Part shown: one piece after another, positions 4,891 to 48,278 of the stretch
Layout: the number at the start of each line of letters is the position of its first letter
Position numbering within the stretch: the first letter of the stretch is position 1
NCBI RefSeq assembly: GCF_000600335.2
Contig: NZ_KK088565.1
Coordinates: 1-64,000, forward strand
Direction: 5' to 3'
Source of the DNA: Rubellimicrobium mesophilum DSM 19309
Lineage (GTDB): Bacteria; Pseudomonadota; Alphaproteobacteria; Rhodobacterales; Rhodobacteraceae
Length of the DNA: 64,000 bases
The notes under the pieces: model-generated
What the model was told of the DNA's origin: nothing
What the model saw: the letters and a program-made list of their open reading frames with translations, nothing else
The model's database searches: none
Made by a program: the position numbers and the translations under genes

Positions 4891-7707
4891 TTGGTGGCGG
4901 ATGGCGGTCAAAGCTTTGGTGTTGGTGAGTGGTGCTGGCATGCGCGGCATGCTGCACCCTGCCGCGTCGTGGATCGGGAGACGGTCTGGGGCGAGACCGC
5001 CTATCGGGTCTGGCTGCCGGGTAAGGACGCCGTCGTCCGCGCCCGGGCGCGCGATCTAGGCCCTCTCGACGCTGTCCAGCCATCGGTCGACCAGATCCTA
5101 CACACCGCATCCTCGGCAAAGCTGTTGGACGCGCTGGAGGACAACCTGCTCCTGGCGCCGATCCAGTCGAGCGTGGTGCCACTGCCGCATCAGCTCTATG
5201 CGCTCAATCGCGCCATGAGCCGCGACAGCATCCGCTATCTGCTCGCGGACGAAGTCGGACTCGGCAAGACGATCGAGGCCGGCCTGATCCTGCGCGAACT
5301 GAAGCTGCGCGGCATGGCGCGCAGGATGCTGGTTGTCGCGCCCAAGGGGCTGGTCCGACAGTGGCAGGCCGAGATGCGCCTGCATTTCGGCGAGCAGTTC
5401 ACTTTCGTTGAACCGGCGGAGCTGTCCGCCTTTCGGCAGTGGCGGAACGATGAGGAGAATCTCTGGCGCGTGCATGATCAGGTGATCTGTTCGCTGGATT
5501 CCGTGAAGCCCATGGAGGGCCGACGCGGCTGGAGCGTGGAGCAGCTCCAGACCTATAACCGTGAACGGTTCGAAGACCTGATCTCTGCGTCATGGGATCT
5601 TGTGATCATCGACGAAGCCCACCGAATGGGTGGCAGCACGGACCAGGTCGCGCGGTATAAGCTGGGTGCGGCCTTGGCCGAGGCGGCGCCGTATCTACTC
5701 CTGCTGTCTGCAACACCTCACCAAGGCAAGACAGACCAGTTTCACCGGCTGATGCAGCTGCTCGATCGCGACACGTTCCCGGATGTGACCAGTATCGCAG
5801 CCGATCGCGTTCGACCCTTCGTGGTCAGGACGGAAAAGCGGGCCGCTATCGACGCGGAAGGGAAACCCCTCTTCAAGCCCCGAATGACACGGTTGCAGCC
5901 CGTCGCCTGGCTGGATCGACATGCTGCCCAGCAGGGCCTGTACGAAGCCGTCACCGAGTATGTCCGCCACGGATACAACCAGGCCATGGCGGCAAAGCAG
6001 CGCCATATCGGCTTCCTGATGATCCTGATGCAGCGTCTGGTGACCTCGAGCACGGCGGCGATCCGCACGACGCTCGAAAAGCGATTGCTCGCGCTCGACG
6101 ACGATCATGCACAGTTGAAGCTCTTTCCTAACGAGCGTGCAGATGACTGGCACGAACTGTCCGGCGAAGATCAGATCGACATGGCGGTAGCGTTTGAAGC
6201 GCTTGCTGATGAACATAAAGATGTCGAGGCCCTGCTGTTCCTCGCGCGGGAGACCGAAGCACAGGGGACCGATGCCAAAGCAGAGGCCTTGCTGGAGCTC
6301 ATCTACAAGATCCAGCAGGAAGAGAACGATCCCGACCTCAAGGTGCTGGTCTTCACGGAGTTTGTTCCGACGCAAGCAATGCTCGCTGACTTCTTGGAAA
6401 GCCGCGGCTTCTCTGTCGTGACATTGAACGGAAGCATGGATCTGGAGGCGCGGTCGCGGACCCAGAAATCGTTCTCGCAGGACGTCCGTATCCTGATTTC
6501 TACGGATGCGGGGGGCGAAGGCCTGAACCTCCAGTTCTGCCACGTCATCGTCAATTTCGACATGCCGTGGAACCCCATGCGGGTTGAGCAGCGGATAGGA
6601 CGTGTTGACCGGATCGGACAGCCGTTTGTGGTGCGCGCCATAAACTTCGTCCTCGAAGACACGGTCGAGTATCGCGTTCGTGAGGTCCTTGAGACGAAGC
6701 TTGCCATCATCGCTGAAGAGTTCGGCGTGGACAAAGCTGCCGACGTCATGGACTCGGTGGAGGCAGAGCCGATGTTCGACGAACTTTTCGTCAACGGCCT
6801 GCAGAACCCAGATGCAATCGAAGCCGACTGTGAGACAGTTGTATCCCATCTGAGAACGGCGATTGCCGAGCATAGCCAAAGCAGTCAGCTTCTGTCTGGA
6901 GGACATGAGCTTGACGCGACCGACGCCCGAAAGTGGCGCGACCACCCGGCTCAGTTCTGGCTGGAGCGGGCGATTACCTCCGGTCTGCCAAATCGCGGCG
7001 GCCAGGCCATCAAGGAGGGCGATGCCTGGCGCGTCCGGTGGTCCGGGGATGGCGAGACAAGTGATGTCTGTTTCGATGCGAGGACCGCGGAAGGACGCCC
7101 GGACCTTGAATGGCTCACACTCGAGGATCCCAGAGCTCGTGCCTTGATTGCAGATTTGCCTCGATGTGTAGCGGGCCAGATCATGCCGTGCATCCGGATC
7201 TCGGGGCTTCCTGGAACCGTCAATGGCGTGTGGTCACTCTGGGAGATCACGCTGTCGGCAGATGCCTTCAGCCGCCGTCGCTTTCTGCCAGTCTTCATCA
7301 GCGACGAGGGGCGAGCGTTCCAGCCGACCGCTAAACGAATTTGGGATCTGCTTCTGACCGAGCGTGTGGAAACCATCGGCTCGACCAATGCTTCCATCGG
7401 CGTTGAGTTCTTTGGCAAGTCCAAGGATGTAGCCGTCTCTCAGGGCGAACGCATGTTTGCGGAACTGGTCGATGAGCACATGACCCGGTTACGGGAAGAG
7501 CGGGACCGTGCGACCTACGCTTATGAGGCGCGCCATCAGGCGATCGGGCGGGTCGGGCTTGCCACGGTTCGGGATTATCGCCGGAAGCGCCTTCAGGCGG
7601 AACATGAGGATCGCCTTGCGCGACTAGACTCTGCCGAAGCCTTCGTACCGGACCTGCACGCTGTTCTTCTGCTGCGTGTTGGCCGGCAAGCAGACGCTGG
7701 CTCATGA
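4891..7707 (+). CDS. brxHII: SNF2-family helicase of the BREX-3 locus (BrxHII-like)
   Basis: This 938-residue SF2/Snf2 ATPase is the BREX-3 helicase. Visible motifs are DEVGLGKTIEAGL (Walker A, near residue 120), IIDEAHRMG (near 240), LLSATPHQG, TEFVPTQ, STDAGGEGLNLQ and QRIGRVDRIGQ (near 570). A long C-terminal region of unknown fold follows. The frame is intact, unlike its neighbours. The start is a TTG directly after the pglX TGA, or GTG one codon later, so translation is coupled. Helicase between pglX and pglZ is the arrangement of BREX type 3. Confidence 0.88.
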   Translation: MVADGGQSFGVGEWCWHARHAAPCRVVDRETVWGETAYRVWLPGKDAVVRARARDLGPLDAVQPSVDQILHTASSAKLLDALEDNLLLAPIQSSVVPLPHQLYALNRAMSRDSIRYLLADEVGLGKTIEAGLILRELKLRGMARRMLVVAPKGLVRQWQAEMRLHFGEQFTFVEPAELSAFRQWRNDEENLWRVHDQVICSLDSVKPMEGRRGWSVEQLQTYNRERFEDLISASWDLVIIDEAHRMGGSTDQVARYKLGAALAEAAPYLLLLSATPHQGKTDQFHRLMQLLDRDTFPDVTSIAADRVRPFVVRTEKRAAIDAEGKPLFKPRMTRLQPVAWLDRHAAQQGLYEAVTEYVRHGYNQAMAAKQRHIGFLMILMQRLVTSSTAAIRTTLEKRLLALDDDHAQLKLFPNERADDWHELSGEDQIDMAVAFEALADEHKDVEALLFLARETEAQGTDAKAEALLELIYKIQQEENDPDLKVLVFTEFVPTQAMLADFLESRGFSVVTLNGSMDLEARSRTQKSFSQDVRILISTDAGGEGLNLQFCHVIVNFDMPWNPMRVEQRIGRVDRIGQPFVVRAINFVLEDTVEYRVREVLETKLAIIAEEFGVDKAADVMDSVEAEPMFDELFVNGLQNPDAIEADCETVVSHLRTAIAEHSQSSQLLSGGHELDATDARKWRDHPAQFWLERAITSGLPNRGGQAIKEGDAWRVRWSGDGETSDVCFDARTAEGRPDLEWLTLEDPRARALIADLPRCVAGQIMPCIRISGLPGTVNGVWSLWEITLSADAFSRRRFLPVFISDEGRAFQPTAKRIWDLLLTERVETIGSTNASIGVEFFGKSKDVAVSQGERMFAELVDEHMTRLREERDRATYAYEARHQAIGRVGLATVRDYRRKRLQAEHEDRLARLDSAEAFVPDLHAVLLLRVGRQADAGS

Positions 7708-21078: not shown

Positions 21079-22306
21079 CGCTGACGCTCACCGTCCATCG
21101 CGGCACGCGCGAGATTGGCGGAAGCTGCATCGAGGTCGCGCATCCTTCGGGGGCGCGGCTGGTGCTCGATGTGGGCCGGCCGCTCGAAGCGGAGCGGGGC
21201 GCGCGGAACCTTCTGCCGCGGACGCTCGATCTGACGCGCCCTGCCACCGTGATTCTGAGCCACTCGCATCAGGATCACTGGGGACTTCTCGAGGAGGTGC
21301 CCTCCGACTGGCCCGTCTGGGCCTCGGCGGACACGGCGGAACTCATGGCCGTGGTGCCCGACCTTCTCGGAACGCCGGCGAGCCGCGGCCTCCGGACCTG
21401 GCCCCGGCGTGGCGCTCCCCGGCGCTCGGGCCGTTCCGCGTGACGCCCATCGCAACGGACCATTCGGCCTTCGACGCTGCCATGCTCCTGATCGAGGCAG
21501 AGGGGACGCGCATCCTGTATACCGGCGACTTCCGGCGGCATGGGCGCAAGGCCGCGCTCGTGGACCGGCTCATGGCCGGTCCGCCCAAAGGCATCGCGGC
21601 CCTCGTAACCGAAGGCACGAACCTCGGCCAGGACAAGCCGGTGGAGAGCGAAGGCGCACTTGAGGACAAGTTCGTCGACCTCTTCCGCCGCACCAAGGGC
21701 CGGGTCTTCGTCGAATGGTCGGGGCAGAACATCGACCGCACAGTCACGCTCACCCGGGCGGCCATGCGGACGGGACGGATCCTGGCCATCGACCTTTACA
21801 CGGCCGACGTGCTCGAGCGCATCAGTGAGGGCACGCGGCTGCCCCGCGCCGGCCATCCCGCCCTGAAGGTGGTCATCACCGGCCGGCTGGCCGAGCGCTA
21901 CCGCGCGAACGGGCGAGGCGAGTTCGTGGCCCGCATGGCGCGGCACGGGATCAGCGCGGCGCGGCTCGCGACGGGGCGGCATGTGGTGATGCTGCGTGGG
22001 GCCCTCATCCCGGACTACGCGTGGAAGGGCGTCTCGCCCACGGCGGAAGACGCCTATGCCCACTCCACCTGGCGCGGATATCTCGCCCGGGACAGCCGCG
22101 CGCTGGACTGGTGCCGGGCGGGCGGCGCGGAACTGGCATATCTCCACACGAGCGGCCATGCTTCGGCGGCCGACCTGCGCGCCTTCGCGGCGGCGGTGCG
22201 GCCCGGGATCGTGGTGCCCGTGCATGGCGCGAACTGGGACAGCGAGGCCGAGGGCTTCGGACCGGTGCGGCGCCTCGCGGATGGCGAGCCTCTGGTGATC
22301 GGCTGA
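21075..22306 (+). pseudogene. RNase J/beta-CASP-like metallo-beta-lactamase-fold protein, frameshifted
   Basis: Starting at GTG 21075 (GTGA overlap), the first frame has REIGGSCIEV, LVLDVGRP and the metal motif SHSHQDHWG (HxHxDH). A second frame starting near 21410 adds PIATDHSAFDAAMLLIE, YTGDFRRHG, HTSGHA and IVVPVHG, the pattern of beta-CASP RNases such as RNase J. Restoring one C in the CCCC run near 21404 joins them (TWPPAWRSPALGPF). The intact form would be about 410 residues and could act as a 5'-exonuclease or endonuclease on RNA. As read, the metal-binding half stops early, so it is either inactive or a sequence error. Confidence 0.75.
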
Positions 22307-23019: not shown

Positions 23020-23060
23020 CCCGGCCATCACCTCGCGGATCGCTGAATGGGCAACCGTGA

Positions 23061-23120
23061 ATGTGACATCTTGACATGACTATATGTTGACATCTGGTCA
23101 TCGTCGTCCTATCCTTGGTC
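23061..23120 (+). promoter_or_regulatory. AT-rich control region with direct repeats upstream of the MerR-like gene
   Basis: In an otherwise GC-rich intergenic stretch, TTGACAT occurs twice (23071-23077 and 23087-23093), once followed by ATGACTATAT. Spaced 16 bp centre to centre, these could be -35-like hexamers or regulator half-sites. The region lies directly in front of the regulator gene, so autoregulation is a reasonable inference. Confidence 0.45.
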
Positions 23121-23748
23121 ATGTCCGACGGTGATCTTTCCCTCGACGACCTGAGCGACCTGTCCGGGGTAGAGCGCCGGACCTTGAGGTCCTGGGTTGC
23201 CGAAGGTCTTCTGTCTCCCCCCGGTGAAGATGGGTCGCGGCGCCATGTACCCTCGCGCGAATCTGGATCGAGCCCTGGCCATCAGAGCCCTGCGGGACAT
23301 CCATGGCGCGTCCCGGACGGCCATCCGCGAAAGGCTGCTCTCCGCCAGCGACCGCGACATCCGCCGCCTCGCGGAGGAGGCCGGGCCGCTCGTCGCGGCA
23401 GCCGTGCCGGCGCCCTCCTCGGCCCGGGCCTATGTCGCGCGCCTGCAGGAGGCGGTGCCGAACCCTAGGAAGCCGCCCATGCCTCCGAGGGCCATTGCGT
23501 CCTCGAAGGTCCCGGCGACCGCCACGACCGCGGGCCTCGAAGCGCTGCTGGCGGTACTGGAGGCCAAGACCAGGGTCCCCGCGGGCACCCGCACTCGCGG
23601 CACCGCCCGCTACCACATCCCCATCACGCCGGACCTCGAGCTTTCCGTGCGCGGCGAGATCTCCCCCCAGGAGCGCGCCATGCTGGAACGAGTCGCCGAC
23701 CTCATCCGCGCCATCCTGACAGGAGGACTGAACCATGACGATGCATAG
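23121..23748 (+). pseudogene. MerR-type transcriptional regulator, frameshifted in a C6 run
   Basis: ATG 23121 opens LSLDDLSDLSGVERRTLRSWVAEGLLSPP, a MerR-like helix-turn-helix. The reading then needs one C fewer in the CCCCCC run near 23217-23222 to continue KMGRGAMYPRANLDRALAIRALRDIHG and a Pro/Ala-rich C-terminal domain ending at TAG 23748. Total would be about 208 residues. The last 14 bases overlap the vWA gene start. A homopolymer in the DNA-binding domain makes on/off variation conceivable; a base-calling error is the simpler alternative. Confidence 0.7.
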
Positions 23749-25066
23749 ACTCGCGCTCTCGGCCGGATTCGACCGGAGCATCGCCTGGGCTCAGGGCGGC
23801 TCCGTCCGGTACCTCGTGGCCCGGGTCGAGGCGTTGCCTGCGACACCGGAGGACCGGGCGGAGCGCGGGCCGCTGAACATCGCGCTGGCCATCGACGCGA
23901 GCGGCTCGATGGGGGGAGGCAAGCTCGAGGCGGCCAAGCGCGCGTCCCTGGCGCTCCTGGGCAGGCTCTCGCCGCGGGACCGCCTGACGGTGGTGTCCTT
24001 CGCCTCGGACGTGGTGACGCATCTGCGCGCCGTCCCGATGGACGAGGCGGGGCAGGTGCAGGCCTCGCACGCGCTGGGCCAGCTGCAGACGCGGGGCAAC
24101 ACGTTCCTGTCCGGCGGCTGGTTCGCTGCGGTCGACGCCTCCGCCGAAGCGGCCGAGTGGAACCCGGGCCTCACGCCCCGAGTGGTCATCCTGAGCGACG
24201 GGCACGCCAACGAGGGCATCACGAGCCCCGATGCGCTGGCGCATCATGCGGGCGAGCTGCGCCGGCGCGGCGTCATCACCTCGACCCTCGGCATTGGCGA
24301 CGGCTATGACGAGGCGTTGCTGGCGGCCATCGCGGAGAATGGTGGCGGCCGGCTCCATGACGCCGAGCGCACCGACGAGATCGAGCATGTGCTTCTGGGT
24401 GAGATCGGCGAGGCAATGGCGCAGGTGGCGGACGCCGTGCATCTGTCGCTGACCGTGCCGGCAGGCGTCCGGGCCGAACCGCTGGGCCTGTCGGCCGCGG
24501 AGGCGCAGCCCGGACGGCTCGGCCTGTCCTTGGGGGGGCTCTCGGCCGGGGTCCCGCGGACCGCCGTGATCCGGCTCTTCTGCCCCACAGGCGAACCGGG
24601 GACCGGCCTCGACGTCGTCCTTTCCGCCAGCGCCACGGCCAGCCGCTCCGGCGACCACCTGGACGCGCCGGAGGTTTGCTGCCGGCTAACCTTCGGCATG
24701 GGCCGGGAGAACGACAGGCAGCCCCGCGACGAGGCGCAGTCGACGGACGCCGCCCGCGCCTGGCATGCCCATGTCCTCCGAAGAGCGGCGCTGCTGAACC
24801 GCGACGCCGACATCCACGAGGCCCAAACCTATCTCGGCCGGGAGCTGGCCCATTTCACCCGCTTCGCGCGAGAGCTTCCCGGCGGGCCGGAGATGATCGA
24901 ACAACTCGAGCTGGTGCGCCGGCGATCTGACCGCCGCTGGGGCGAGCGCACGCGCAAGGAGATGGTGCTGCACTCCGCCCTCGCCGAGCGCTCGGGTCTC
25001 GACCACCGCGGCACGAGCAGGTCGCACTGGACGGCCCACATCGCGAACGAGCCTGATGCATCGTGA
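23735..25066 (+). CDS. vWA-domain protein
   Basis: This 443-residue protein starts at ATG 23735 with a strong AGGAGG upstream. The von Willebrand A domain (residues about 45-220) has a complete MIDAS: DASGSM near residue 53, TRGNTFLSGG, and ILSDGHANEG. A beta-rich middle and a helical C-terminus (FTRFARELPGGPEMIEQLELV) follow. No signal peptide is seen, so it is cytoplasmic. vWA proteins commonly partner AAA+ ATPases as metal-dependent adaptors; here the tandem AAA+ protein is encoded 4 kb away on the opposite strand. Confidence 0.88.
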   Translation: MTMHRLALSAGFDRSIAWAQGGSVRYLVARVEALPATPEDRAERGPLNIALAIDASGSMGGGKLEAAKRASLALLGRLSPRDRLTVVSFASDVVTHLRAVPMDEAGQVQASHALGQLQTRGNTFLSGGWFAAVDASAEAAEWNPGLTPRVVILSDGHANEGITSPDALAHHAGELRRRGVITSTLGIGDGYDEALLAAIAENGGGRLHDAERTDEIEHVLLGEIGEAMAQVADAVHLSLTVPAGVRAEPLGLSAAEAQPGRLGLSLGGLSAGVPRTAVIRLFCPTGEPGTGLDVVLSASATASRSGDHLDAPEVCCRLTFGMGRENDRQPRDEAQSTDAARAWHAHVLRRAALLNRDADIHEAQTYLGRELAHFTRFARELPGGPEMIEQLELVRRRSDRRWGERTRKEMVLHSALAERSGLDHRGTSRSHWTAHIANEPDAS

Positions 25067-32339: not shown

Positions 32340-33916
32340 GTGATCCACACTCGGACGAGCCAGAGTCATCCACTCTATGTCAGCGACCTTGCCGTGGGGC
32401 CGGGCCGGCTTGGCCTGACCATCTGCCCGGGCAAGAAGGGGGACAGCGTTTTCGGCGCACCCTGGGACCGGGACCTCGGTATGGATCTTGCCGCAGTCCG
32501 CGACTGGGGCGCTACGGCCGTCCTGACGCTCGTGGAGCCGCACGAATTGCGGATGCTTGGGGTGGAGCGACTGGGCGAGGCCGTCCGCGCGCTTGGGATG
32601 GAATGGCACCACTTCCCCATTCCGGACCTGGGCGCGCCGAAGGATCTTGACCGCTCTAGCTGGTGGAGGCTCTCGACCCGGCTGCACGGGATACTCGACC
32701 AGGGGGGCCGCGTGCTGGTCCACTGCCGCGGCGGGCTCGGGCGCGCCGGCACCATGGCCGCGCTCCTGCTGACCGAGCGCGGCGACACGGCCCAGGAGGC
32801 GATTGCGCGAATCCGCGCTGTTCGGAAGGGCGCGATCGAGACTGCCGTGCAGGAGCGGTTCCTCGCCAGCCGCGCGGCCCTCCCCGACGCACGCACGGAA
32901 CGCATCCGCGCCTCGCTCTTCGGCGGAGCCATCGGCGATGCGCTCGGGGCCGCGATCGAGTTCTGGAAGCTTCCGCAGATCCTGCGCCGCTTTCCGAATG
33001 GTGTGGACGAGATGCTGCCTTATGACGGGCGCCTGGGGGCCATCACCGACGACACGCAGATGACGCTGTTCACGGCCGAAGGCATGATCCGGGCCATGGT
33101 GCGCGGCATCGGCAAAGGCGTCTGCCATCCGCCGTCGGTGATCCACCGTGCTCTCTTGCGCTGGTATGCCACCCAAGGCGCCCGACCGGCGCGGGAGGTC
33201 TGCGCCGTGGGCCTCGTCGAGGACCCCCGCCTGCACCGCCGGCGCTCGCCGGGTATGACCTGCATGGCTGCTTTGGGGGCGACACGGGCGTTTGGCGATG
33301 TTGCGCGCAATGACTCCAAGGGATGCGGCACGATCATGCGGGTGGCGCCCGTAGCCTTCATGGGCGGAGACCTGGGGCAGGTCGAGACCATCGCTTTAAA
33401 AAGCTCGGCGCTCACGCATGGCCATAGGACAGGGCAGGAGGCTGCCGCCGCCTGGGCGCTCATTCTGGCAGACGTGCTGCGGGGCACGAGAGTCGAGACG
33501 GCTGCGCTCGGTGCTGCGGAGCGGTTCGGGACGGAAACCGCCCGGGCGATTCGATCCGCGCTCAGCGCGCCGCGGGATGGTCGACCAGGTACGGTCGAGA
33601 GCCTGGGGGCGGCTGGATAGCGGAAGAGGCTCTCGCCATCGCGCTCTACGCCGGGCTGGCCTCCACTTCCTTCGAGGACGGACTGCGCATTGCCGTGACG
33701 CACGGCGGCGACAGCGACAGCACAGGCGCCATCGCAGGCAACCTGCTGGGCCTGCTCTACCCGCAGGAGGTCATGGCGCATCCGTGGCGGCGCGAGATCG
33801 AGTGCGCCGACGTGATGGAGCGCCTCGCTCGGGACATAGGAGCCTGCCTTCGCAACCCGGCTGTCTGCGACGACGAGGCACCCGGCGGAATCGAGGAGCG
33901 CTACCCCGGCTGTTGA
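32340..33916 (+). pseudogene. Dual-specificity phosphatase / ADP-ribosylglycohydrolase fusion, frameshifted near the end
   Basis: GTG 32340 follows GGGAGG, and the start aligns with the paralogue at 44937 (VIHTRTSQSHP versus MIRTSQTHP). Residues 1-180 are a cysteine phosphatase with VHCRGGLGRAG (HCx5R). Residues from about 195 are an ADP-ribosylglycohydrolase: GGAIGDALGAAIEF, ITDDTQMTLFTAEG, CGTIMRVAPVAF and [10 protein letters not shown]. The final metal motif [15 protein letters not shown] is in another frame; restoring one G in the GGGGG run near 33607 joins it ([18 protein letters not shown]). Intact, the protein would be about 525 residues and remove ADP-ribose and phosphate groups. Confidence 0.82.
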
Positions 33917-35198: not shown

Positions 35199-38100
35199 AT
35201 GAAGACCTTCGGGGACACGATCCTTCTGTCCGCATCCGACGTGATGCGCTTTGCGGGCTGCCAGCACGCCACGGCGCATGACCTGCGCTGGATGCGGCGC
35301 GAGCCGCCGAAACCGCGCGAGGCCGGGGCGGAGGCTGTGATCCTCCAGGGCAAGGGCGACGCGCACGAAGCCGGGCATCTCGACAAGCTCCGGGCCGACG
35401 GACGCCGCATCATCGGGATCGAGGGCAACGACCTCGTTCGCGACGTCGGGGCCACGCTTGCGGCGCTCCGCGAGGGCCCGGAGGTGATCTACCAGGGCGC
35501 GCTCATGGCGCGAGGAGAGGGCGCCGCCTGGGGCGGCTGGTCGGACTTCCTCGAGCGGGTGGATAGACCCTCGAAGCTAGGCGAGTACAGCTACGAGGTG
35601 GTGGACACCAAGCTCAAGCGCAGCGTTACCGCCAAGCACGTCCTCCAGCTTGCCCTCTACTCGGACCTTCTGGCCGAGGTGCAGGGGGTGCATCCCGAGC
35701 ACATTCATGTCGAGCTCGGCACGGGCAAGCGCGCGACGCTGCGGCTCGTGGAGTTCGCCGCCTACGCCCGGCGGTTGCGGCGGAGGCTCCAGGGCTTCGT
35801 GGCCTCGCCTTGGGCCACGCGGGCTGCTCCTTGCGCGGACTGCGATCTCTGCCGCTGGGGTGACGCCTGCGACGACCAGTGGCGCGCCGAGGACAGCCTC
35901 TTCGGCGTGGCGAACATCTCCAAGGTGCAGGTCGCGAAGCTCGAGGCGGCGGGCGTGCGGACCATGGCCGAACTCGCCTCCCTCGACCGCGTGGTGCGAG
36001 GCCTGTCGCCCTCGACGCAAGGCAAGCTTGTCCTCCAGGCCAAGCTCCAGCACGACCGCAAGACCGGCGAGCCCACTCATGTCCTGCGTGAGCCCGAGCC
36101 GGGGCGCGGCTATGCGCTCCTGCCCCGGCGCGATCCGGGCGACATCTTCTACGACATCGAGGGCGACCCCCATGTGGACGGGGGCGGGCTCGAGTACCTG
36201 CACGGCCTATGGTGTGGGGGCGAGTTCCACGCGCTCTGGTCCCATGACCGGGCGGGGGAGAAGGAGGCGCTGCGCAAGCTCCTCGGCTTCTTCGAGGCGC
36301 GCCTGCGCGAGAGCCCGGAGGCGCACATCTACCACTACGCCGCCTACGAGGTGACGGCGCTCAAGCGCCTCACCGTCCGGCACGGGATCGGCGAGGCCCT
36401 CCTCGACCGGCTCCTGCGCGAGCGGCGCTTCGTGGACCTCTACACCGTTGTGCGCGGCGCAGTGGTGGCTTCCGAGGACAACTATTCCATCAAGTCGCTT
36501 GAGGCGCTTTACGGCCTCGAACGCGACGGCGAGGTGAAGACGGCGGGCGGTTCGGTGGTGGCCTACGAGCGCTACCGCGACACCGGCGACGAGGCGATCC
36601 TCAAGGAGATCGAGGCCTACAACCGCGTCGACTGCGTCTCGACGGAGAAGCTGCGCGATTGGCTCGTCACCGTCCGCCCCGCGGGCGAATGGCCGGTGCT
36701 CGGCCAAGGCTCCGCCGACGCGGAGGAGTCCGACAGCGCCCGCAAGGACCGCGAGCACGAGGAGGAGGTGCGCCGCCTCTTGGGGGAACCAGGCGAGGAC
36801 AAGGTCCGGCGCGCGCTCCTCGATCTGGGCCTCTTCCACCGCCGCGAGGCGAAGCCGGCTTGGTGGGCCGTGCTCGCCTCCGTGGACAAGCAGCCCGAGG
36901 AGCTGGAAGAGGATCTCGACGCCCTGGGCGGGCTGGAGGCGATGGGCCCGGCCGAGCCGACCTCGACCCGTAAGTCGGTTCAGCGGCGCTACCGCTTCCC
37001 ACCGCAGGAGACGAAGATCCGCGCCGGGCAAACGGTCTCGGTGCCCACCGACGGGTTCCCCGACACGGTCGAGGTCGTCGAACTGGATCATGCGCGGGGC
37101 GAGGTTCTCCTCAAGAAGGGGAACGCCAAGGCGCATCTCCTGGCGGATCGGCTGAGCCTGCATCCGACCGGCCCTCTGAAGACTGACGTGATCCGCGACG
37201 GCCTACGCGCCGTGATCGTCGACCAGTGCGGCGAGAAGCGCCTGACCGCCGTGGACGACCTCCTCGCCCGCCGGCCGCCGCGGCTTCGGGGCGGGCCGGT
37301 GGCCGACATCCTGGGCGGCCGCGACCCGGTCGAGGGGACGGTCGACGCGGTGCTGCGGATGGAAGGCACGGTGCTGCCCATCCAAGGGCCGCCCGGGACG
37401 GGCAAGACCTATGTCACCGCCCGCGCGATCCTGGCGCTGGTGCGCGAGGGCAAGCGCGTGGGGGTCGCCGCCTCCTCGCACGAGGCGATCCGCAACGTGC
37501 TCCTGGGCTGCCTCTCGGCTCTGGAGGAGGCGGACCTGCCCTTCGACTGCGAGATCGCCCACAAGGTGGGCGAGGGGGAGGACAGCTACGAGGAGGGCTG
37601 CCCCATCCAGCGCCCGACCTCGAACGACGCGGCGATCCTGAGCGCCGCGCCGGTTGTGGGCGGCACCGCCTGGTTCTTCGCCCGCGACGAGCAGGCCGGC
37701 CGGTTCGACTACCTCTTCGTCGACGAGGCGGGGCAGATGGGCCTCGCCAACCTCCTCGGCATGGGCCGCGCCGCGCGCAACATCGTGCTCGTCGGCGACC
37801 CGCGCCAACTCCCGCAGGTGATCCAGGGCTCTCATCCTGATCCCGCCGGGCTCTCCTGCCTCGAATGGCTCTTGGGCGAGGCCTCGACCATCCCGCCCGA
37901 CCGGGGCATCTTCCTGCCTGTCTCGCGCCGGATGCACCCGGACGCGTGTCCGCTTCATCTCGGACCAGGTCTATGCGGGCCGGCTCCTGAGCCACCCCGA
38001 CACCGCCAAACAGAAGGTTGGCAACACCCCCTTCCCGGAGGGCGGCGCCTTTTGGGTGCCTGTGGAGCACAGCGCCCGCGCCCAGATCTGCCCCGAGGAG

Positions 38101-38544
38101 GTCGAGGCCATCGCCGAGGCCGCGGCTCTGCTCCTCTCCGGGCTCTGGACCGACAAGGACGGCGCTAGTCGCCCCATGCGCGAGAGCGACATCATCGTGG
38201 TCGCCCCCTACAACGCGCAGGTGAACGCGCTGCGGGACGCGCTACCTGCCGGCATCAAGGTGGGCACGGTGGACAAGTTCCAGGGCCAGGAAGCGGCCGC
38301 CTGCCTCGTCTCCATGACCGCCTCGTCGGCCGAAGAGACCTCGCGCGGGATGGAGTTCCTGCTCTCGCTCAACCGCATCAACGTGGCCGTGTCGCGGGCC
38401 AAGGCGCTCGCGCTCGTCTTCGGGGCCGAGCGGCTGCTGGACGCGCGCTGCGAGACGGTGGAGCAGATGCGGCTCGCGAACACGCTCTGTGCGCTAGCCG
38501 AGGCGGGGCAGGTGGAACGGCCGGTGATCCGGAGGGCGTCGTGA
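35199..38544 (+). pseudogene. TM0106-type RecB-like nuclease / RNase H-like / SF1 helicase, frameshifted
   Basis: The intact protein would be about 1115 residues. The N-terminal RecB/Cas4-like nuclease has YEVVDTKLKRSVTAKHVLQLALY and a Cys cluster (CADCDLCRWGDAC). An RNase H-like YprB domain follows: IFYDIEGDPHV, YHYAAYEVTAL, YNRVDCVST. The helicase has GPPGTGKTYVTARA, LFVDEAGQMG, LVGDPRQLPQV, TVDKFQGQE and NVAVSRAKALA. The frame breaks after RRMHPDA near 37951, where one extra C in TGTCCGC shifts it; removing it reads CRFISDQVYAGRLLSHPD and continues. It is GTGA-coupled to a membrane coiled-coil protein. Confidence 0.85.
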
Positions 38545-40169: not shown

Positions 40170-41291
40170 TCAGGCGGCCTCGTCGAGGTCGAGAAAATCA
40201 TCCATCATGAAGGGGTTCGGGTCGTTGCGGTACGGGCCCATCATCTTCTTAACGGGCCCGTCGGTGCGGATCCCGCAGCCGTTGAGCATCCGGTGCAGGT
40301 CCCGGCGCAGCTTCAACGGCAGCCGTCCGTTCTCCGCCAGCTTGGCCTCGGACAGGTAGCAGCCGAACGGGGCCTCCGCGCTGATTGAGAAGACGACCGC
40401 CGGCGCCTCGGGCGCGCGCCATATGTAGTACTGCCGCTCCCCCTTCAGCGCCTCGGCCACGTAGCCCGCCAAGCAGTTCGAGAACTCGCGCGCGGTCCGG
40501 ACCAGCGCCTGCCCGTCCGGGATGTAGGCCAGCTCCGGGCCGCTGAGGACCGGGGCCGGGAAGGGGAGGTCGAGGTAGATCCCCTCGAGGAGGTTCCCCG
40601 GCGCCTCGCCTTCGGCGATCCGCCGCAGATGCGCCTCGGTCAGCTGGGCATTCCCGGTGATCGCCTGATAGGGGCGCATCAGCTGGTTATACTCCCCCAT
40701 CGCCTCGAAGCGGGCGGCGGCGCGGACCCCGAGCGGGGTCGGCGGGAGCGCCTGCGCAAGCTCGATCAGGTCATCGGTCAGCGGCCCGGTCTGGCAGGCG
40801 CCGAGCAGCGGCGGCGCGAGGTCCGGGTGCGCGTCCAGCAGCCCGAACAGGCCGGTGTAGATCTCCGGCTTGCGCGCGCAGTCCCCGAACCGCCCGATCA
40901 GGCGCAGGAACCCCAACGGGCAGGACCCGTAGGCCTGAGCGATCAGGTCCTCGTTGCGCGCCAGCACGAGCCGGCTGAGCAGGTCGGCCCGGGCCGCCTC
41001 GTCGAGGCCGGGCGCCTCGAAGGCCCCGTCCGCGTCGAGCCGGGCCAGCACCGCGAAATACACTTGGCGGCGGCGCGGCTCGGTCATCACGAGCAGGAGG
41101 GCGAGCGGGCCGAAGACGGCGGTGGCGGCCCCCTCGAGCGACCCGCAGACGGCGCTGACCAGGAAGCGGTTCCCGGGCACGACCTGGCAGTGGCGGGCGA
41201 GGTCGAGCAGCTCGGACTTCAGGGCGGCGGGGCTGATGCTGTCTGCGGCGCAGATCAGCTGGGTGATACGGCGGGACAAATCGGTATGCAT
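40170..41291 (-). CDS. Hypothetical protein, possible PcfJ-like C-terminus, 373 aa
   Basis: The protein starts at ATG 41291 and is helical through most of its length. Near residue 270 it reads REFSNCLAGYVAEALKGERQYYIW followed by AVVFSISAE, which recalls the Cys-containing core of PcfJ-like plasmid proteins (weak resemblance). No catalytic function can be assigned. It lies 52 bp downstream of the 143-residue gene and is probably in one transcript with it, divergent from the Nudix/NrtR gene. Confidence 0.5.
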   Translation of the reverse strand: MHTDLSRRITQLICAADSISPAALKSELLDLARHCQVVPGNRFLVSAVCGSLEGAATAVFGPLALLLVMTEPRRRQVYFAVLARLDADGAFEAPGLDEAARADLLSRLVLARNEDLIAQAYGSCPLGFLRLIGRFGDCARKPEIYTGLFGLLDAHPDLAPPLLGACQTGPLTDDLIELAQALPPTPLGVRAAARFEAMGEYNQLMRPYQAITGNAQLTEAHLRRIAEGEAPGNLLEGIYLDLPFPAPVLSGPELAYIPDGQALVRTAREFSNCLAGYVAEALKGERQYYIWRAPEAPAVVFSISAEAPFGCYLSEAKLAENGRLPLKLRRDLHRMLNGCGIRTDGPVKKMMGPYRNDPNPFMMDDFLDLDEAA

Positions 41292-41343: not shown

Positions 41344-41775
41344 TCAGGCGGCCCGGGGGAGGGCGACGCGGGCGTCCTCCGCCCCGGCATGAAGCGCCTC
41401 CGCCGCGGCGGCGCGCGCGGCGGAGAGGGTGGTATAGGGGCGGGGCAGCGCGGCCCCGCGCACCTGGACGATGAACTTGCCCGGGCGGACCCGGATGACC
41501 CGGGCGACGAGGCGGCCCCCGTCAAAGCCGCGGAAGGTGGTGCGCCCGGCGGTCGTGCGGTCCCAGTCGAGGCCGCAGGCGGCGATCAGGGAGTCCTCGG
41601 CGGGGCAGGCCGCCTCGAAGACGGTGAGGGCGTCACGCAGGCGCAGCGCGTCAGCGTAGGCGGGGCTGCGGCGGGGCCCTTTGGCGATGACGCGGGCGGC
41701 GTTGGCGGCCCAGACGGCGCGCTTGGCCGCGGTCATGGCGGGGATGGCGGTGATCACGTCGTCGATGCGGCTCAT
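41344..41775 (-). CDS. Hypothetical protein, 143 aa
   Basis: This Ala/Arg-rich protein starts at ATG 41775. The first half is helical (VITAIPAMTAAKRAVWAANAARVIAKG); the second has beta-like segments (RLVARVIRVRPGKFIVQVRG). No family was recognised. A candidate minus-strand promoter with TTGACA at 41936-41931 and TAGACG at 41912-41907 lies upstream, close to the operator-like element shared with the Nudix gene. Confidence 0.5.
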   Translation of the reverse strand: MSRIDDVITAIPAMTAAKRAVWAANAARVIAKGPRRSPAYADALRLRDALTVFEAACPAEDSLIAACGLDWDRTTAGRTTFRGFDGGRLVARVIRVRPGKFIVQVRGAALPRPYTTLSAARAAAAEALHAGAEDARVALPRAA

Positions 41776-41930
41776 GAGCTCTCCGTTGTGATGGGCTACA
41801 TATATGGGGGAGACGCGAGGCGGCGGGGCGCGGACATGCGAAGACGCCCTCGCGCGGGCGGCGCGACGGCGTGCAGGATGCGCGGTGATGTGAGGCGGGA
41901 AGGACACGTCTACACGATCTGCGCGGTGAC

Positions 41931-41973
41931 TGTCAAGGTAAATCTCACATAATAATATTGTAAATTTTACCTA
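41931..41973. promoter_or_regulatory. Divergent control region with operator-like element 1
   Basis: This short AT-rich patch sits in a very GC-rich block. AATATTGTAAATTTTACCTA at 41954-41973 contains the odd-centred palindrome GTAAA-T-TTTAC and matches a second element at 43235-43254 in 12 or more of 20 positions (AATAT-n-GTA, then ACC). A TTGACA on the minus strand at 41936-41931 would serve the 41775 gene. Binding by the adjacent NrtR-like regulator is an inference. Confidence 0.55.
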
Positions 41974-42029
41974 TCATGGATATCCTTGAGCTGCGTGCGT
42001 GAACCCATCAAAAACCCCAAGGAGACCCC

Positions 42030-43223
42030 ATGAGCCGGAACGATCAGCCCGACGGGGCGGAGGGCCACCTCTACCGCTTTCCGATGGTGTCGGTGGCGAC
42101 CGACATCGTGCTCCTGAACCTGCCGCGCGGGGGCGGGCTGCGGGTCGCGCTCGTACGTCGCTGTCCGGACGCCGAGGCCTACGCGGACCGTTGGGCGCTG
42201 CCGGGTGGGTTCCTGAAGGCGGGGGAGGACCCGGACTTGGAGGCCTGCGTGCGGCGCGAGCTCCTTGAGGAGGTCGGGATCGAGAACCCGCATCTTGAAC
42301 TGATCGGGGTCTACAGCGCGATCGACCGGGACCCGAGACCGGAGCGGGTGATCTCGGTCGCCTATCTGTCGGTCCTCCTGTCCGAGGAGCCGGAGGTGGC
42401 CCCGATCACCGGGACGGACGTGGTGGAGGCGCGATGGGTCCCGCTCCCGGAGCTTGTTGACGGGGATTATGAGGGAGTGCCGCTCGCCTTCGACCACGCG
42501 CGCATCCTCGCGGACGCGCGCCGGCTGATCGAGGACCGGATCCCGTTCGGCCGCCGCGAGGAGGGGGCGCCGGAGCTGCTGTTCGCCTTCCTGCCCGAGG
42601 CGTTCACGCTGGGCCAGGCGACGGAGGTGATGACCCATCTGAAGGGGAAGGTGGACCCGAGCAACTTCCGCAAATACCTGCTCCCCTTCCTGGAGCCGAC
42701 CGGCGCCTCCGCGCGGACCAGCACCCGGTCCGCCGCCCTCTACCGGCGCCGCCTCGCCGCCCCCGAACCGGAGCGGGAGCTCCCGGCCGGCCTGCAGCGG
42801 CTGCGCCGGATCGCCCGCGAGGCGCAGATCCGCCTCTTCGACCTGTTCCTCGCGACCCTCACCGCGGCCCCGGAGGGGGAGGTGCGGCTCCTCGGCCGGG
42901 TCCTCACGGCTTACGCACGTCACCGGGACTTCGGGGTCAGCGTCTCGCGCGCCCCGGAGCTCCGGATCACGGACCTGGGCACGGGCCGCCCCCTCATCGC
43001 GCTGAGCTGGGACCCGCGGCGCGGCGCGCTGACCGGGACCGCGCTGGCGGAGCCAAGGGAGCTTTCCGGGGTCCGGCTCCCGGAACTCGAGCCGAACCGG
43101 TCCGGTCCGCATCGGAGTCGGTTCCGGGCGGAGCCAGGGGAAGAGGGGGCGGACCGGCTGGACGAGGCGCTCCGGATCAGCCGGGCCGCGCTCGTCACCG
43201 GCGGGGGCGGGGATCCGGCTTGA
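42030..43223 (+). CDS. Nudix-domain transcriptional regulator, NrtR-like, with extra C-terminal domain
   Basis: This 397-residue protein starts at ATG 42030 after AAGGAG. The N-terminal Nudix fold has a full Nudix box (GGFLKAGEDPDLEACVRREL then LEEVGI). The following winged helix (FLPEAFTLGQATEVMTHLKGKV, NFRKYLLPFLEPTG) is the NrtR pattern. NrtR proteins use the Nudix fold to sense ADP-ribose or related NAD metabolites and repress NAD-related genes; the box here is intact, so hydrolysis is also possible. About 160 residues follow the winged helix, which is long for the family. Operator-like elements flank the gene. Confidence 0.85.
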   Translation: MSRNDQPDGAEGHLYRFPMVSVATDIVLLNLPRGGGLRVALVRRCPDAEAYADRWALPGGFLKAGEDPDLEACVRRELLEEVGIENPHLELIGVYSAIDRDPRPERVISVAYLSVLLSEEPEVAPITGTDVVEARWVPLPELVDGDYEGVPLAFDHARILADARRLIEDRIPFGRREEGAPELLFAFLPEAFTLGQATEVMTHLKGKVDPSNFRKYLLPFLEPTGASARTSTRSAALYRRRLAAPEPERELPAGLQRLRRIAREAQIRLFDLFLATLTAAPEGEVRLLGRVLTAYARHRDFGVSVSRAPELRITDLGTGRPLIALSWDPRRGALTGTALAEPRELSGVRLPELEPNRSGPHRSRFRAEPGEEGADRLDEALRISRAALVTGGGGDPA

Positions 43224-43256
43224 CAGGTCGGCGCAATATGGTATAAATCACCATAT
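43220..43256 (+). promoter_or_regulatory. Promoter with overlapping operator-like element 2
   Basis: TTGACA at 43220-43225 and TATAAA at 43242-43247, 16 bp apart, form a near-consensus sigma-70 promoter. Perfect inverted arms ATATGGT (43236-43242) and ACCATAT (43250-43256) overlap the -10 box, the layout of a repressor site. The same core occurs upstream of the Nudix/NrtR-like gene. It should drive the gene at 43343 and possibly the downstream phosphatases. Confidence 0.7.
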
Positions 43257-43296
43257 CTCACATCACGGTCACCGGACCCCTCCCCTTAGCGGCCTC

Positions 43297-43314
43297 GCCC
43301 GCGTCGGCGCGGGC
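43297..43314 (+). other. Leader hairpin upstream of the 43343 gene
   Basis: GCCCGCG and CGCGGGC form a perfect 7-bp stem with a 4-nt loop, followed by CCCTTT. It lies between the predicted promoter and the start codon, so it could attenuate or stabilise the transcript. Confidence 0.4.
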
Positions 43315-43342: not shown

Positions 43343-43984
43343 ATGATCGAACCCGCCCCCAGTTTCCCCCTTGACCTCTCCCACCTCAAGGTAGCGGCGC
43401 GCTCCGCGATCCGGACCTGGGCCGGGGGGGAGGGGCGGATGTCGCGCGAGATCCGGGAGCTGGGGGCGATCGACGAGGCGTTCCTGCGCCGCTGGCTCGG
43501 CCTGTGGATGCTGGCCCGGTCCAACCCGACCCCGTATCGTCCGCTGCTCGCCGCCGAGCTCGGGACGGTCGTTCGGCCCGCGCTGATCGCGGCGCCGGAG
43601 GAGCGGCTGCCCGCCCTCGTGTCTGAGCTTGCCAGCGGGCTTCAGGCGGCGGGGGCGACGCGCGGCCTGCAGACCAGCCTCGTCTCGAAGTTCGCCTTCT
43701 CGCTGCGCCCGGAGGTGATCGTCCCCTATGACAAGCGGGCGCGGCAGGGGCTCGGCGAGATGTTTGGGCGCCGGCTGCCGGATCACGACTACCCGGCCTA
43801 CCTGGCCGCCTTCCACCGGTTCGCCGACGCCTTCTCCGCGCATCTGGACGGGACCGGGGTTACGGAGGCGATGTGGGACGACTGGGCGCCGGTGATGTCG
43901 GAGCGACTCTTCCGGATGCGGGCCGCGGACAAGTATTTCATGCTGCTCGGCGGGTTCCCGGTCGAGCGGATGGCGTGCGACTGA
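43343..43984 (+). CDS. Hypothetical protein, 213 aa
   Basis: ATG 43343 is preceded by CAGGAG. The middle reads TRGLQTSLVSKFAFSLRPEVIVPYDKRARQGL, a segment that recalls helix-hairpin-helix DNA-glycosylase-like proteins, though the catalytic Lys/Asp pattern was not confirmed. The gene has its own strong promoter and operator-like element and heads a run with a PPP phosphatase and a dual-specificity-type phosphatase. Function unknown. Confidence 0.55.
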   Translation: MIEPAPSFPLDLSHLKVAARSAIRTWAGGEGRMSREIRELGAIDEAFLRRWLGLWMLARSNPTPYRPLLAAELGTVVRPALIAAPEERLPALVSELASGLQAAGATRGLQTSLVSKFAFSLRPEVIVPYDKRARQGLGEMFGRRLPDHDYPAYLAAFHRFADAFSAHLDGTGVTEAMWDDWAPVMSERLFRMRAADKYFMLLGGFPVERMACD

Positions 43985-44012
43985 CCCGCCCGACGCGATC
44001 TCTGCTGAACAT

Positions 44013-44032
44013 ACGCGCCCGGCCGGGCGCGT
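44013..44032. repeat. Perfect 20-bp GC palindrome
   Basis: Two half-sites ACGCGCCCGG meet head to head to give a perfect 20-bp palindrome in the 77-bp gap between the 43343 and 44062 genes. It could form a hairpin in the transcript or be a protein-binding site. Confidence 0.5.
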
Positions 44033-44061
44033 CCCTCTCACCCCCTTCCAATAAGGCCCGC

Positions 44062-44895
44062 ATGTCGGTTGATCGGACCCGTCCGGGCCCTTGGCGCCCG
44101 CTCCCCTGTCGCGGCCCTGAAGCGCAGCTCTTCGTGATCGGGGACCTGCACGGCCAGGCGGGCGCGCTCGGCGCCGCGCTGGACGCGATCGGCCGGGTCC
44201 CGGGGACCGGCCTGCCGCGGCGCCTCGTCTTCCTCGGGGACCTGATCGACCGGGGGCCGGACAGCCTCGGCGCGGTGCGGCTGGCGATGGGGGCGGCGGA
44301 TCAGGCGCGGGTCGACGCGGTCACCCTGCTGCCCGGGAACCACGAGCTGATGCTGATCGACGGGCTTCTGGACCCGCAGGAGTTCATGGGGGACTGGCTC
44401 GACAACGGGGGGGATGAGGTGATCCGGGAGGTGGACCCGGGCTGCACGGCACGAAAGCTCGTAGACCTCGCCGAGATTGCCCGGGCCGCCTTCGACCCGG
44501 CCTTCCTGATCGCGATGACCTCCGGCCCCTCCTTCGAGCGGGCGGGGGAGTTGCTCCTGGTGCATGCGGGGCTCGCCCCGGGCGTGGATGCGGGGATCTT
44601 CCTGTCACAGGGCCGGTTCGGGTCGTCCGGGAAGCACTGGGCCTGGATCCGGGACCCGTTCCTCGACTGGGAGTTCGGCTGGGGGCCGGACCGGTCCTGG
44701 GTCGTCGTCCACGGCCACACCCCGGCGGTGACGCGCCGGGCCGGACCGGACGGGTTCGCGCGCGCCGCGGACCGGGTCGAGACCCATCGGCGGCTCTGCC
44801 TCGACGCGGGCGCCGCCTTCGGGCTGCCACAGGTCGGCTGGGCGGAGTTCGGGCCGGACCGGTACCGGGTCGGGCTCGCCCGGCAGGACGTCTGA
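44062..44895 (+). CDS. PPP-family serine/threonine phosphatase-like metallophosphoesterase
   Basis: This 277-residue protein starts at ATG 44062. The classic PPP/ApaH-like signature is complete: VIGDLHGQ, FLGDLIDRGPDS, LLPGNHELM, LLVHAGLAPG and VVHGHTPA. It should remove phosphate from proteins or hydrolyse dinucleotide polyphosphates such as Ap4A. It is followed by the stand-alone dual-specificity-type phosphatase after 41 bp, suggesting joint dephosphorylation steps in one operon. Confidence 0.85.
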   Translation: MSVDRTRPGPWRPLPCRGPEAQLFVIGDLHGQAGALGAALDAIGRVPGTGLPRRLVFLGDLIDRGPDSLGAVRLAMGAADQARVDAVTLLPGNHELMLIDGLLDPQEFMGDWLDNGGDEVIREVDPGCTARKLVDLAEIARAAFDPAFLIAMTSGPSFERAGELLLVHAGLAPGVDAGIFLSQGRFGSSGKHWAWIRDPFLDWEFGWGPDRSWVVVHGHTPAVTRRAGPDGFARAADRVETHRRLCLDAGAAFGLPQVGWAEFGPDRYRVGLARQDV

Positions 44896-44936
44896 TGCAG
44901 AGGGGAGATCAACGAGGCGATGAGAGAGGGGACCCA

Positions 44937-45503
44937 ATGATCCGCACCAGCCAAACCCACCCGATCCGGGTCGACGCCGTCCCGGTCCGCGAGGGCCTCC
45001 TCGGCCTGACCTTCTGCCCCGGCAAGCACGGGGACAGCCTGAACGGCGCCCCCTGGGCGCGCGACCTCGACACGGACTTGCGCGCCCTGCGCGACTGGGG
45101 CGCGGGTCTGGTCCTGACCCTGATCGAGCCGCATGAATTCGGCCTCCTGCGGGTCCCGGACCTCGGCACGCGGGTGGAGGCACAAGGCATGAGCTGGGCG
45201 CATCTCCCGATCCGGGACGTGGACGTGCCGGCCTCCCCGTTCTTGTCGGGCTGGCCCGCGGTCCGAGCAGACCTGCTCTCCCGGCTTGACGCGGGGGAGC
45301 GGGTGATTGTTCATTGCCGGGGCGGGCTCGGCCGGGCCGGCTTGGTGGCGGCGCTCCTCCTGATCGAGACGGGCCTGCCCGCGGAGGCGGCGATCCGGAC
45401 GGTGCGGACGGCCCGGCCCGGCGCGATCGAGACGGCGGCGCAGGAGCGGTACGTGCGGGCTTATGTCCCGTCCGGGACCGCTGACCCGGAACGAACCCTC
45501 TGA
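44937..45503 (+). CDS. Dual-specificity-type cysteine phosphatase
   Basis: This 188-residue protein starts at ATG 44937. It closely resembles the phosphatase half of the fusion at 32340: TFCPGKHGDSLNGAPWARDLDTDL, LTLIEPHEF and the catalytic loop VHCRGGLGRAG (HCx5R). The two are paralogues, one alone and one fused to an ADP-ribosylglycohydrolase. Substrate unknown; phosphoprotein, RNA 5'-phosphate or ADP-ribose-phosphate are all possible for this fold. Confidence 0.85.
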   Translation: MIRTSQTHPIRVDAVPVREGLLGLTFCPGKHGDSLNGAPWARDLDTDLRALRDWGAGLVLTLIEPHEFGLLRVPDLGTRVEAQGMSWAHLPIRDVDVPASPFLSGWPAVRADLLSRLDAGERVIVHCRGGLGRAGLVAALLLIETGLPAEAAIRTVRTARPGAIETAAQERYVRAYVPSGTADPERTL

Positions 45504-47404: not shown

Positions 47405-48278
47405 GAGCCTGTTTGGCGAAGGGGGTTGGAGCGATCAGCGCTGAACCGGGATGGTGTGAGCTCGTGCGTTCCTGCCAGCATGAAAGCACGATATCCGAGC
47501 AGCCTGACGGACGCGCAGTGGGCGCTGGTCCGACGGCATCTTCCCGAGCTGGTTGGCGGTCGCCGGCGTCACTGGCCCACCCGCCTTGTGGTTGACGCCG
47601 TGTTTTACGTCGTCCGAACGGGGTGCCAGTGGCGTCAGCTCCCACGCGACTTCCCGCCATGGCAGACGGTCTACTACCACCATCGCCGATGGGACGGACG
47701 GGGTCTTCTGCACCGGCTCCACGAGGCGCTCCGGCGAGCCGTTCGCGTCCAGTGCGGCCGGGCGCCCGAGGCCTCAGCGGGCGTCATGGACAGCCAGAGC
47801 GTGCGCACGACCCAGGCAGGCGGTGTGCGGGGTTACGACGGCGGCAAAGGCGTGCAGGGCCGCAAACGGCATCTGCTCGTCGACACCGAAGGACTTGTTC
47901 TGGCGCACGAGGTCACCGGCGCCCATGTTTCCGACCAAGCCGGAGCCCGGCGCCTGCTGTCGGCCCAGATCCGCTCCAGCCTCGCCTTGAGCGGATCTGG
48001 GCCGACGGCGCCTACGCAGGGCAGCCTCTGTCCACATGGGCCTCCGAGCAAGGCGTCCGGATCGAGATCGTCCGACCCGCCGAAGGCCAAAAGGGCTTCG
48101 CTATCCAGCCGCGTCGGTGGGTGGTCGAGCGCACCTTTGGTTGGCTCGGCCGATCGCGCCGCCTGGCGAAGGACTACGAACGCCGCCTCCAGTCGGCCGA
48201 GGCTTTCATCAAGCTCGCCATGATCCACCTCATGCTCCGTAGGCTCGCTCCATCGACATAGCTTCGCCAAACAAGCTC
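47405..48278 (+). mobile_element. IS5-family insertion sequence (IS427-type size)
   Basis: Terminal inverted repeats GAGCCTGTTTGGCGAAG (47405-47421) and GAGCTTGTTTGGCGAAG (complement of 48262-48278) match at 16 of 17 bases. TTA is duplicated on both sides (47402-47404 and 48279-48281). The 874-bp length and TTA-type target agree with small IS5-family elements. Confidence 0.9.
47480..48261 (+). pseudogene. IS5-family transposase, split by a -1 frameshift
   Basis: The first frame (MKARYPSSLTDAQWALVRRHLP, GVMDSQSVRTTQAGG, GRKRHLLVDTEG) and the second (RIWADGAYAGQPL, VVERTFGWLGRSRRLAKDYE) are the two halves of a DDE transposase. The join near 47980-47990 requires a -1 shift. IS427-type elements sometimes use programmed frameshifting, but no A-rich slippery run is obvious here, so a point deletion is equally likely. 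Confidence 0.85.

Follow-up and report, generated by a model that had tools for sequence, protein, structure and literature searches.

The stretch of DNA analyzed here (the window) comprises 64 kb with a GC content of 65.5%. It contains two AT islands at 41926-41992 (containing site 1) and 43233-43266 (containing site 2), between which the gene of an NrtR-type regulator is located. The genes and elements of the locus are as follows:

32349 to 33913, plus strand: dual-specificity-type phosphatase (DSP) fused to an ADP-ribosylglycohydrolase (PF03747, 1.8e-42, and PTP-SAK, both in its first open frame)
40170 to 41291, minus strand: divergent 373-aa gene without recognised family; an 80% ortholog lies beside the regulator in genome G990
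41344 to 41775, minus strand: divergent 143-aa gene without recognised family, also conserved next to the G990 regulator
41926 to 41953, plus strand: weak promoter-like GTGACT-16-CATAAT toward the regulator (9/12 match), overlapping site 1a
41933 to 41953, plus strand: site 1a, TCAAGGT-AAATCTC-ACATAAT, a GT-N7-AC box and weak palindrome (3/7 pairs)
41949 to 41977, minus strand: weak promoter-like ATGATA-17-TATTAT toward the divergent genes (9/12 match), overlapping site 1b
41955 to 41975, plus strand: site 1b (the first element of the earlier note), ATATTGT-AAATTTT-ACCTATC, a GT-N7-AC box and weak palindrome (2/7 pairs)
42030 to 43223, plus strand: NrtR-type regulator, 397 aa, identified by Pfam domains, solved relatives and a 75% ortholog in G990
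43220 to 43247, plus strand: promoter TTGACA-16-TATAAA, the sole 11/12 sigma-70-like match on both strands of the 64 kb
43236 to 43256, plus strand: site 2, palindrome ATATGGT-ATAAATC-ACCATAT with perfect 7-7-7 geometry
43343 to 43984, plus strand: gene of 213 aa, the first to follow site 2, without recognised family
44062 to 44895, plus strand: calcineurin-like phosphatase (Metallophos, 1.1e-12)
44937 to 45503, plus strand: dual-specificity-type phosphatase (PTP-SAK, 3e-12), paralogous to the phosphatase part of the fusion at 32349

The earlier note had read the gene between the two elements as a Nudix/winged-helix protein of the NrtR type. This was confirmed, as both domains scored above their Pfam cut-offs: the Nudix domain spans aa 24-142 (PF00293, 3.8e-19, 69.5 bits against a cut-off of 21.1) and the NrtR winged helix aa 185-239 (PF21906, NrtR_WHD, 37.1 bits against 27). 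With an N-terminal Nudix domain and a C-terminal NrtR winged helix the protein is of the NrtR-type superfamily. The remaining C-terminal extension of about 155 aa (window 42756-43223) gave no family match. A single-sequence structure model of the regulator was too poor for use (mean pLDDT 36.8), and for the extension the model, at very low confidence, would suggest helices, a strand meander and a helix. The best solved relatives were BtAraR (top), the MutT/Nudix-family protein 2fml and SoNrtR, which we take to be structure 3gz5. PADLOC returned a partial match of the Nudix domain to PDC-S07 (3.8e-5).

The members of the NrtR family are ADP-ribose-responsive repressors of NAD genes. The regulator resembles SoNrtR and MsNrtR in combining a Nudix domain with the NrtR winged helix; it differs from them by its C-terminal extension and by missing the cut-off of the equivalog model NF050029 (ADPR-responsive repressor, NrtR proper) with 65.7 bits against 400. 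The AraR_C model reached 21.9 bits, just below its Pfam cut-off of 23.8. We regard it as a tentative possibility that the protein, as a regulator of the NrtR superfamily, has a ligand other than free ADP-ribose (a sugar, NAD, or phosphorylated or cyclic ADP-ribose), or that its Nudix domain is still an enzyme. The NF050029 score points in this direction, as does a two-residue insertion which, by our reading of the alignment, interrupts the Nudix box, although REXXEE is retained. Furthermore, the best solved relative, BtAraR, is arabinose-responsive according to excerpts of PMC4666351. The same excerpts describe a sugar catabolic regulon for this Bacteroides protein, whereas the neighbourhood of the regulator in the window concerns ADP-ribose removal, as detailed below, which argues against this possibility.

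Full-length relatives of the regulator were rare. None was found in 146 other genomes, the best match there being G057 (aa 7-241). Within the same family, 15 of 394 genomes, our own included, had any match at 1e-12, and besides our own only G990 carried a full-length one (75% identity). All matches on plasmids (163 records) and phages (16) were below 60% identity and none covered 80% of the regulator. Genome contigs yielded no close relative and one weak Nudix match, and in viral contigs neither the regulator, nor the 43343 and 40170 proteins, nor two alignments found a close relative.

Site 2 is a perfect inverted repeat lying exactly on a promoter match. The perfect 7-bp arms reported by the earlier note were found, and the palindrome runs two bases past the end given there. 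The near-consensus promoter whose -10 box is overlapped by the element was likewise verified: its -35 TTGACA (43220-43225) overlaps the stop codon of the regulator and its -10 TATAAA (43242-43247) lies inside site 2. Perfect 7-bp arms at any gap up to 15 had a p of 0.08 in the 119-bp region and 0.01 in the 60-bp island; with the spacer fixed at the family value of 7, p was 0.0066 in the intergenic region and 0.0014 in the 60-bp island. Of the 11 perfect 7-bp-arm palindromes with spacer 7 in the 64 kb, site 2 is the only AT-rich one. The count of pairs about the axis with the spacer included was not significant (p 0.19-0.91). Distant targets were sought as sites within 3 mismatches of ATATGGT-N7-ACCATAT, and the arms of site 2 had no second match within 2 mismatches in their own genome. 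A GC-rich inverted repeat, GCCCGCG-TCGG-CGCGGGC, is located at 43297-43314 just before the start of the 43343 gene and is a possible leader hairpin.

At site 1, the boxes 1a and 1b lie 22 bp apart, near the tandem spacing seen in relatives of the regulator. A pair of GT-N7-AC boxes at 22-24 bp had a p of 0.0044 in the 254-bp divergent intergenic region, and only two such pairs occur in the 64 kb, the one outside site 1 being 43% AT. Among all GT-N7-AC boxes of at least 60% AT in the 64 kb, sites 1a, 1b and 2 make up three of four; the pattern used in these counts is a loosened version of the GTGT-N7-ACAC of the relatives and was chosen after the window was seen. The family consensus GTGT-N7-ACAC itself was absent from both site regions at up to 1 mismatch. 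The half AATATKGT is common to both sites and occurs three times in the 64 kb (10121, 41954 and 43235). The only spacer-7 palindrome of the divergent region with at least 6/7 pairs is GC-rich and lies at 41848, outside site 1. Two larger symmetries at site 1 were rejected: the long inverted repeat AGGTAAA-N23-TTTACCT (p 0.11 for 7-bp arms and gaps up to 25 in the site 1 island) and a 37-bp palindrome centred on 41954 (p 0.004 at one of six tested lengths, 0.04-0.97 at the others). What is retained of them here is the pair of outer half-sites in the double box.

The earlier note had based its proposal on the likeness of two 20-mers. These were found at 41954-41973 and 43235-43254, within the AT islands of the GC-rich window, and agree at 13 of 20 positions. 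As evidence for an operator, however, their match did not hold. In dinucleotide shuffles the pairwise likeness of sites 1 and 2 had a p of 0.08 to 0.86 depending on length and region, which is within chance for AT-rich DNA, and at 20 bp a different pair of stretches from the same two regions matches better (14/20). We have rejected pairwise similarity as operator evidence, since AT-rich shuffles do as well. This result favors an alternative in which the AT islands are mere promoter cores. They would then be alike in the way that AT-rich -10 regions are in GC-rich DNA, and the regulator would have its binding sites at other positions or in other sequences. Such an explanation leaves aside that the perfect spacer-7 palindrome coincides exactly with the window's best promoter match, that three of the four AT-rich GT-N7-AC boxes fall on the two sites, and that two of them form a tandem pair at 22 bp; we consider it unlikely. 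A further AT island at 23058-23094, with repeated TTGACAT and one 10/12 promoter match, is located just 3' of a calcineurin-like phosphatase gene.

Better evidence for an operator than the likeness of the two sites comes from the geometry of the family. The MsNrtR operator, GTTTTCGA-N7-TCGAAAAC, is palindromic with a 7-bp spacer, and autoregulation was reported, according to excerpts of PMC6800001. BtAraR binds tandem 21-bp sites, and its printed oligo, as interpreted here, reads AGTGT-N7-ACACC twice (excerpts of PMC4666351). Of 38 homolog loci, L006 (no alignment) and the ortholog L073 were left out, and upstream statistics were based on the remaining 36. Within the 150 bp preceding the predicted start, 16 of the 36 had a spacer-7 palindrome, whereas 50 shuffles gave 2.98 on average and never more than 8. 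Counts were likewise raised for spacers 3, 5 and 9 (13, 11 and 12 of 36), odd values with the same base-centred axis, and less so for the odd spacers 1, 11, 13 and 15 (8, 7, 8 and 6). Even spacers occurred in 2 to 6 of the 36 loci and never exceeded the shuffle maximum. By eye, tandem boxes 22 to 23 bp apart were seen in L055, L058, L060, L065 and L066, and boxes 24 bp apart in L038. A strict tandem-pair pattern was matched by L054, L060, L065 and L066 of the 36 (shuffle mean 0). The half-site of the window, ATATGGT, differs from the GTGT or GTTG types of the relatives.

A weight matrix was built from 24 hand-picked homolog boxes of 18 loci. With a GC-rich background, stretches one base off the boxes scored highly, 41954 ranking first and 43235 fifth in the 64 kb; in the GT-N7-AC register itself, sites 1 and 2 ranked only 14th and 67th. 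With an AT-rich background neither site region stood out (p 0.08-0.32), which again favors mere promoter cores. Since its outcome changes with background and register, the matrix was rejected as decisive evidence.

Conservation upstream of orthologous genes, the check named by the earlier note, could be followed in one ortholog and gave a divided result. A contig of G990 carries the regulator and both divergent genes (75, 62 and 80% identity), with the C-terminal extension of the regulator conserved and the winged helix that binds DNA nearly identical. In the divergent region, GTCAAGGTAAA (site 1a) and AATATTGT (left half of site 1b) are kept at identical, gap-free spacing. The ACC half of site 1 is not conserved, and for site 2 no counterpart was found at fewer than 3 mismatches in the G990 genome, which is 88% complete. 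Because the winged helix is nearly identical, the loss of the ACC half and of site 2 is the main evidence against the exact operator. The stronger part of the operator may lie in its left half, AATATKGT. Furthermore, the conservation of GTCAAGGTAAA may be conservation of a promoter, since by our reading its minus strand is a CTTGAC-type -35, a point in favor of promoter cores. The divergent region of G990 contains another palindrome, ATCAATATT-N10-AATATTGAT (L085 5216-5243), which had no other occurrence within 3 mismatches in either genome.

These data also bear on the idea of a single operator, either site 1, whose left part is conserved and which would serve autoregulation, or only site 2, to which this or a different regulator would bind. 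It would fit with a good palindrome being present at site 2 only, and with G990, where part of site 1 is conserved and site 2 is lacking. However, the AATATKGT half and the GT-N7-AC register are common to both sites, and the G990 contig ends about 50 bp past the regulator. We judge a single operator to be rather unlikely.

Among the phosphatase genes which the earlier note had placed after 43343, two of three are indeed phosphatases and the first has no family. A single-sequence structure model of this 213-aa protein was too poor for use (mean pLDDT 45.6). A search of 289 genomes of the class with the 43343 protein gave its own genome and a single weak match in G090; the 40170 protein, compared with 147 relatives, matched its own genome only, and on plasmids the 43343, 41344 and 40170 proteins had no close relative. 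Among the five other genes of the adjacent operons, three of which have no family, none was recognised as an NAD synthesis or salvage gene; in this respect the locus may differ from the NrtR family. A DDE transposase is located at 47623-48261, about 2 kb past the phosphatase genes.

The wider neighbourhood resembles a type of system predicted previously. ADP-ribosylglycohydrolase ('ARG-centric') systems have been predicted to carry ADP-ribose-sensing Nudix-HTH or WYL negative regulators, with phosphatases, vWA proteins and nucleases as partners (PMC9503650, section 3.8). Within 17.7-45.5 kb of the window we found the ADP-ribosylglycohydrolase coupled with a phosphatase in one protein, the Nudix-HTH regulator about 8 kb from it, and as accessory genes a vWA protein (23735-25066), calcineurin-like phosphatases (Metallophos at 22021, 33963 and 44062) and a TIGR03491 nuclease-helicase (35199); the window also has AAA. 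The phosphatase at 44937 is 56% identical to 32352-32885; we equate this DSP type with the rhodanese-phosphatase superfamily of PMC9503650. The distance of the regulator from the ADP-ribosylglycohydrolase differs from the predicted systems, as does the reading frame of the latter, which is broken near 33605 (two frames in tblastn); on the G990 contig (L085) the same fusion is one open frame. PADLOC gave partial matches only, of the helicase part of 35199 to MkoA (1.1e-16) and of 39751 to PDC-S26 (2.4e-8). By our own reading, a helicase-like open frame at 38056-38544 overlaps in another frame the end of the TIGR03491-type nuclease-helicase (35199-38168), which may be a broken gene. The predicted systems carry no coupled ADP-ribosyltransferase or sirtuin; among the selected window ORFs scanned, none matched either.

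The DSP-ADP-ribosylglycohydrolase fusion was also present on plasmids. In Leisingera and Fuscovulum it lies beside a WYL gene, as PMC9503650 would lead one to expect. The fusion is flanked on one side by AAA and WYL genes and on the opposite side by genes of a PD-(D/E)XK nuclease and a UvrD helicase in L090 (Leisingera thetidis) and L091 (Fuscovulum blasticum), an arrangement that looks like a conserved defence-type cluster. On Cereibacter and Roseomonas plasmids neither a Nudix-HTH nor a WYL regulator was seen near the fusion among the listed features.

Neighbours of the regulator were also surveyed over the 38 homolog loci, of which 23 were represented by 6.5-16 kb and 15 by about 3.6 kb. 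An ADP-ribosylglycohydrolase was present in two of them, one being G990. In G610 (L109 3081-5412), the homolog (44% over aa 14-250) is divergent from the ADP-ribosylglycohydrolase gene, and the 88-bp intergenic gap contains two perfect GTGT-N7-ACAC boxes. The N-terminus of this glycohydrolase resembles the DSP of the window (32%). A Band-7 gene together with a gene for a conserved 300-aa protein was found in 13 loci (L040, L060, L065, L066, L104, L105, L110-L114, L116 and L117); in the one copy scanned (L112) the 300-aa partner had no Pfam match.

A TIR gene was the neighbour in four loci. The five best same-family matches after G990 were G666, G860, G892, G057 and G043, and a TIR-WD40 gene was located nearby in four of the five. 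In G666, G892 and G860 this gene and the regulator are divergently oriented, in G860 with a doubtful open frame of 273 aa in between; in G043 it is one gene away, and in G057 none was found within the 9 kb examined. In all four loci, perfect GTGT-N7-ACAC boxes are present on the regulator side and on the TIR side:

L086 (G666), 5893 to 6422: perfect boxes near TIR-WD40
L087 (G860), 4768 to 5767: perfect boxes near TIR-WD40
L088 (G892), 6730 to 7297: perfect boxes near TIR-WD40
L038 (G043), 6406 to 6700 (tandem, 24 bp) and 7196 to 7365: perfect boxes near TIR-WD40

The TIR-side pair of G043 faces a gene of 164 aa too and may serve that gene. It is possible, judging from this gene order and these boxes, that an ADP-ribose sensor controls TIR proteins in these relatives. 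Full-text literature searches found no paper that joins NrtR with TIR-WD40, nor one that joins a Nudix repressor with TIR-domain NADases; where NrtR and a TIR domain were named together, a paper on NAD salvage in Pseudomonas mentions TIR NADases in its discussion, and a second makes no mention of WD40.

Taken together, we consider it fairly probable that the protein encoded at 42030-43223 is an autoregulated local NrtR-type repressor of an ADP-ribosylglycohydrolase-type system, acting via the predicted operators. The context is one of ADP-ribose removal, for which a Nudix-HTH repressor had already been predicted (PMC9503650), and no NAD synthesis gene was recognised next to it. The autoregulated local regulon of the earlier note is partly supported, in that operator-like elements of the family geometry are present at both promoter regions, and qualified by G990 keeping only part of site 1. 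From the domains, the site geometry, the promoter match, the gene content and the neighbourhood we infer binding, repression, ligand and extent of the regulon as follows. At site 1 the ligand-free dimer would bind the double box and so lie over the divergent promoter region that serves the regulator and the 41344 and 40170 genes; at site 2 it would bind the single strong box and lie over the -10 of the 43343-45503 promoter. ADP-ribose or a derivative, arising from the clean-up of ADP-ribosylated molecules or from NAD breakdown, would bind the Nudix domain and the repressor would be released.

The kind of system is already known from the ARG-centric prediction (PMC9503650), of which the locus is, on sequence grounds, a plausible further member. 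For the family we find it almost evenly balanced, though still doubtful, that the NrtR-type clade of the window has left NAD biosynthesis and become an ADP-ribose-responsive switch of conflict genes, including the TIR-WD40 genes of the relatives, with the C-terminal extension as an added system-specific module. Neither 'operator' nor 'palindrom' occurs in the main text of PMC9503650, and the sites described here would provide concrete candidate operator sequences for the predicted ADP-ribose-sensing repressors thought to guard against ADP-ribosylation. In addition, those relatives in which perfect GTGT-N7-ACAC boxes lie close to TIR-WD40 genes would allow a direct test of whether an ADP-ribose sensor controls TIR proteins.
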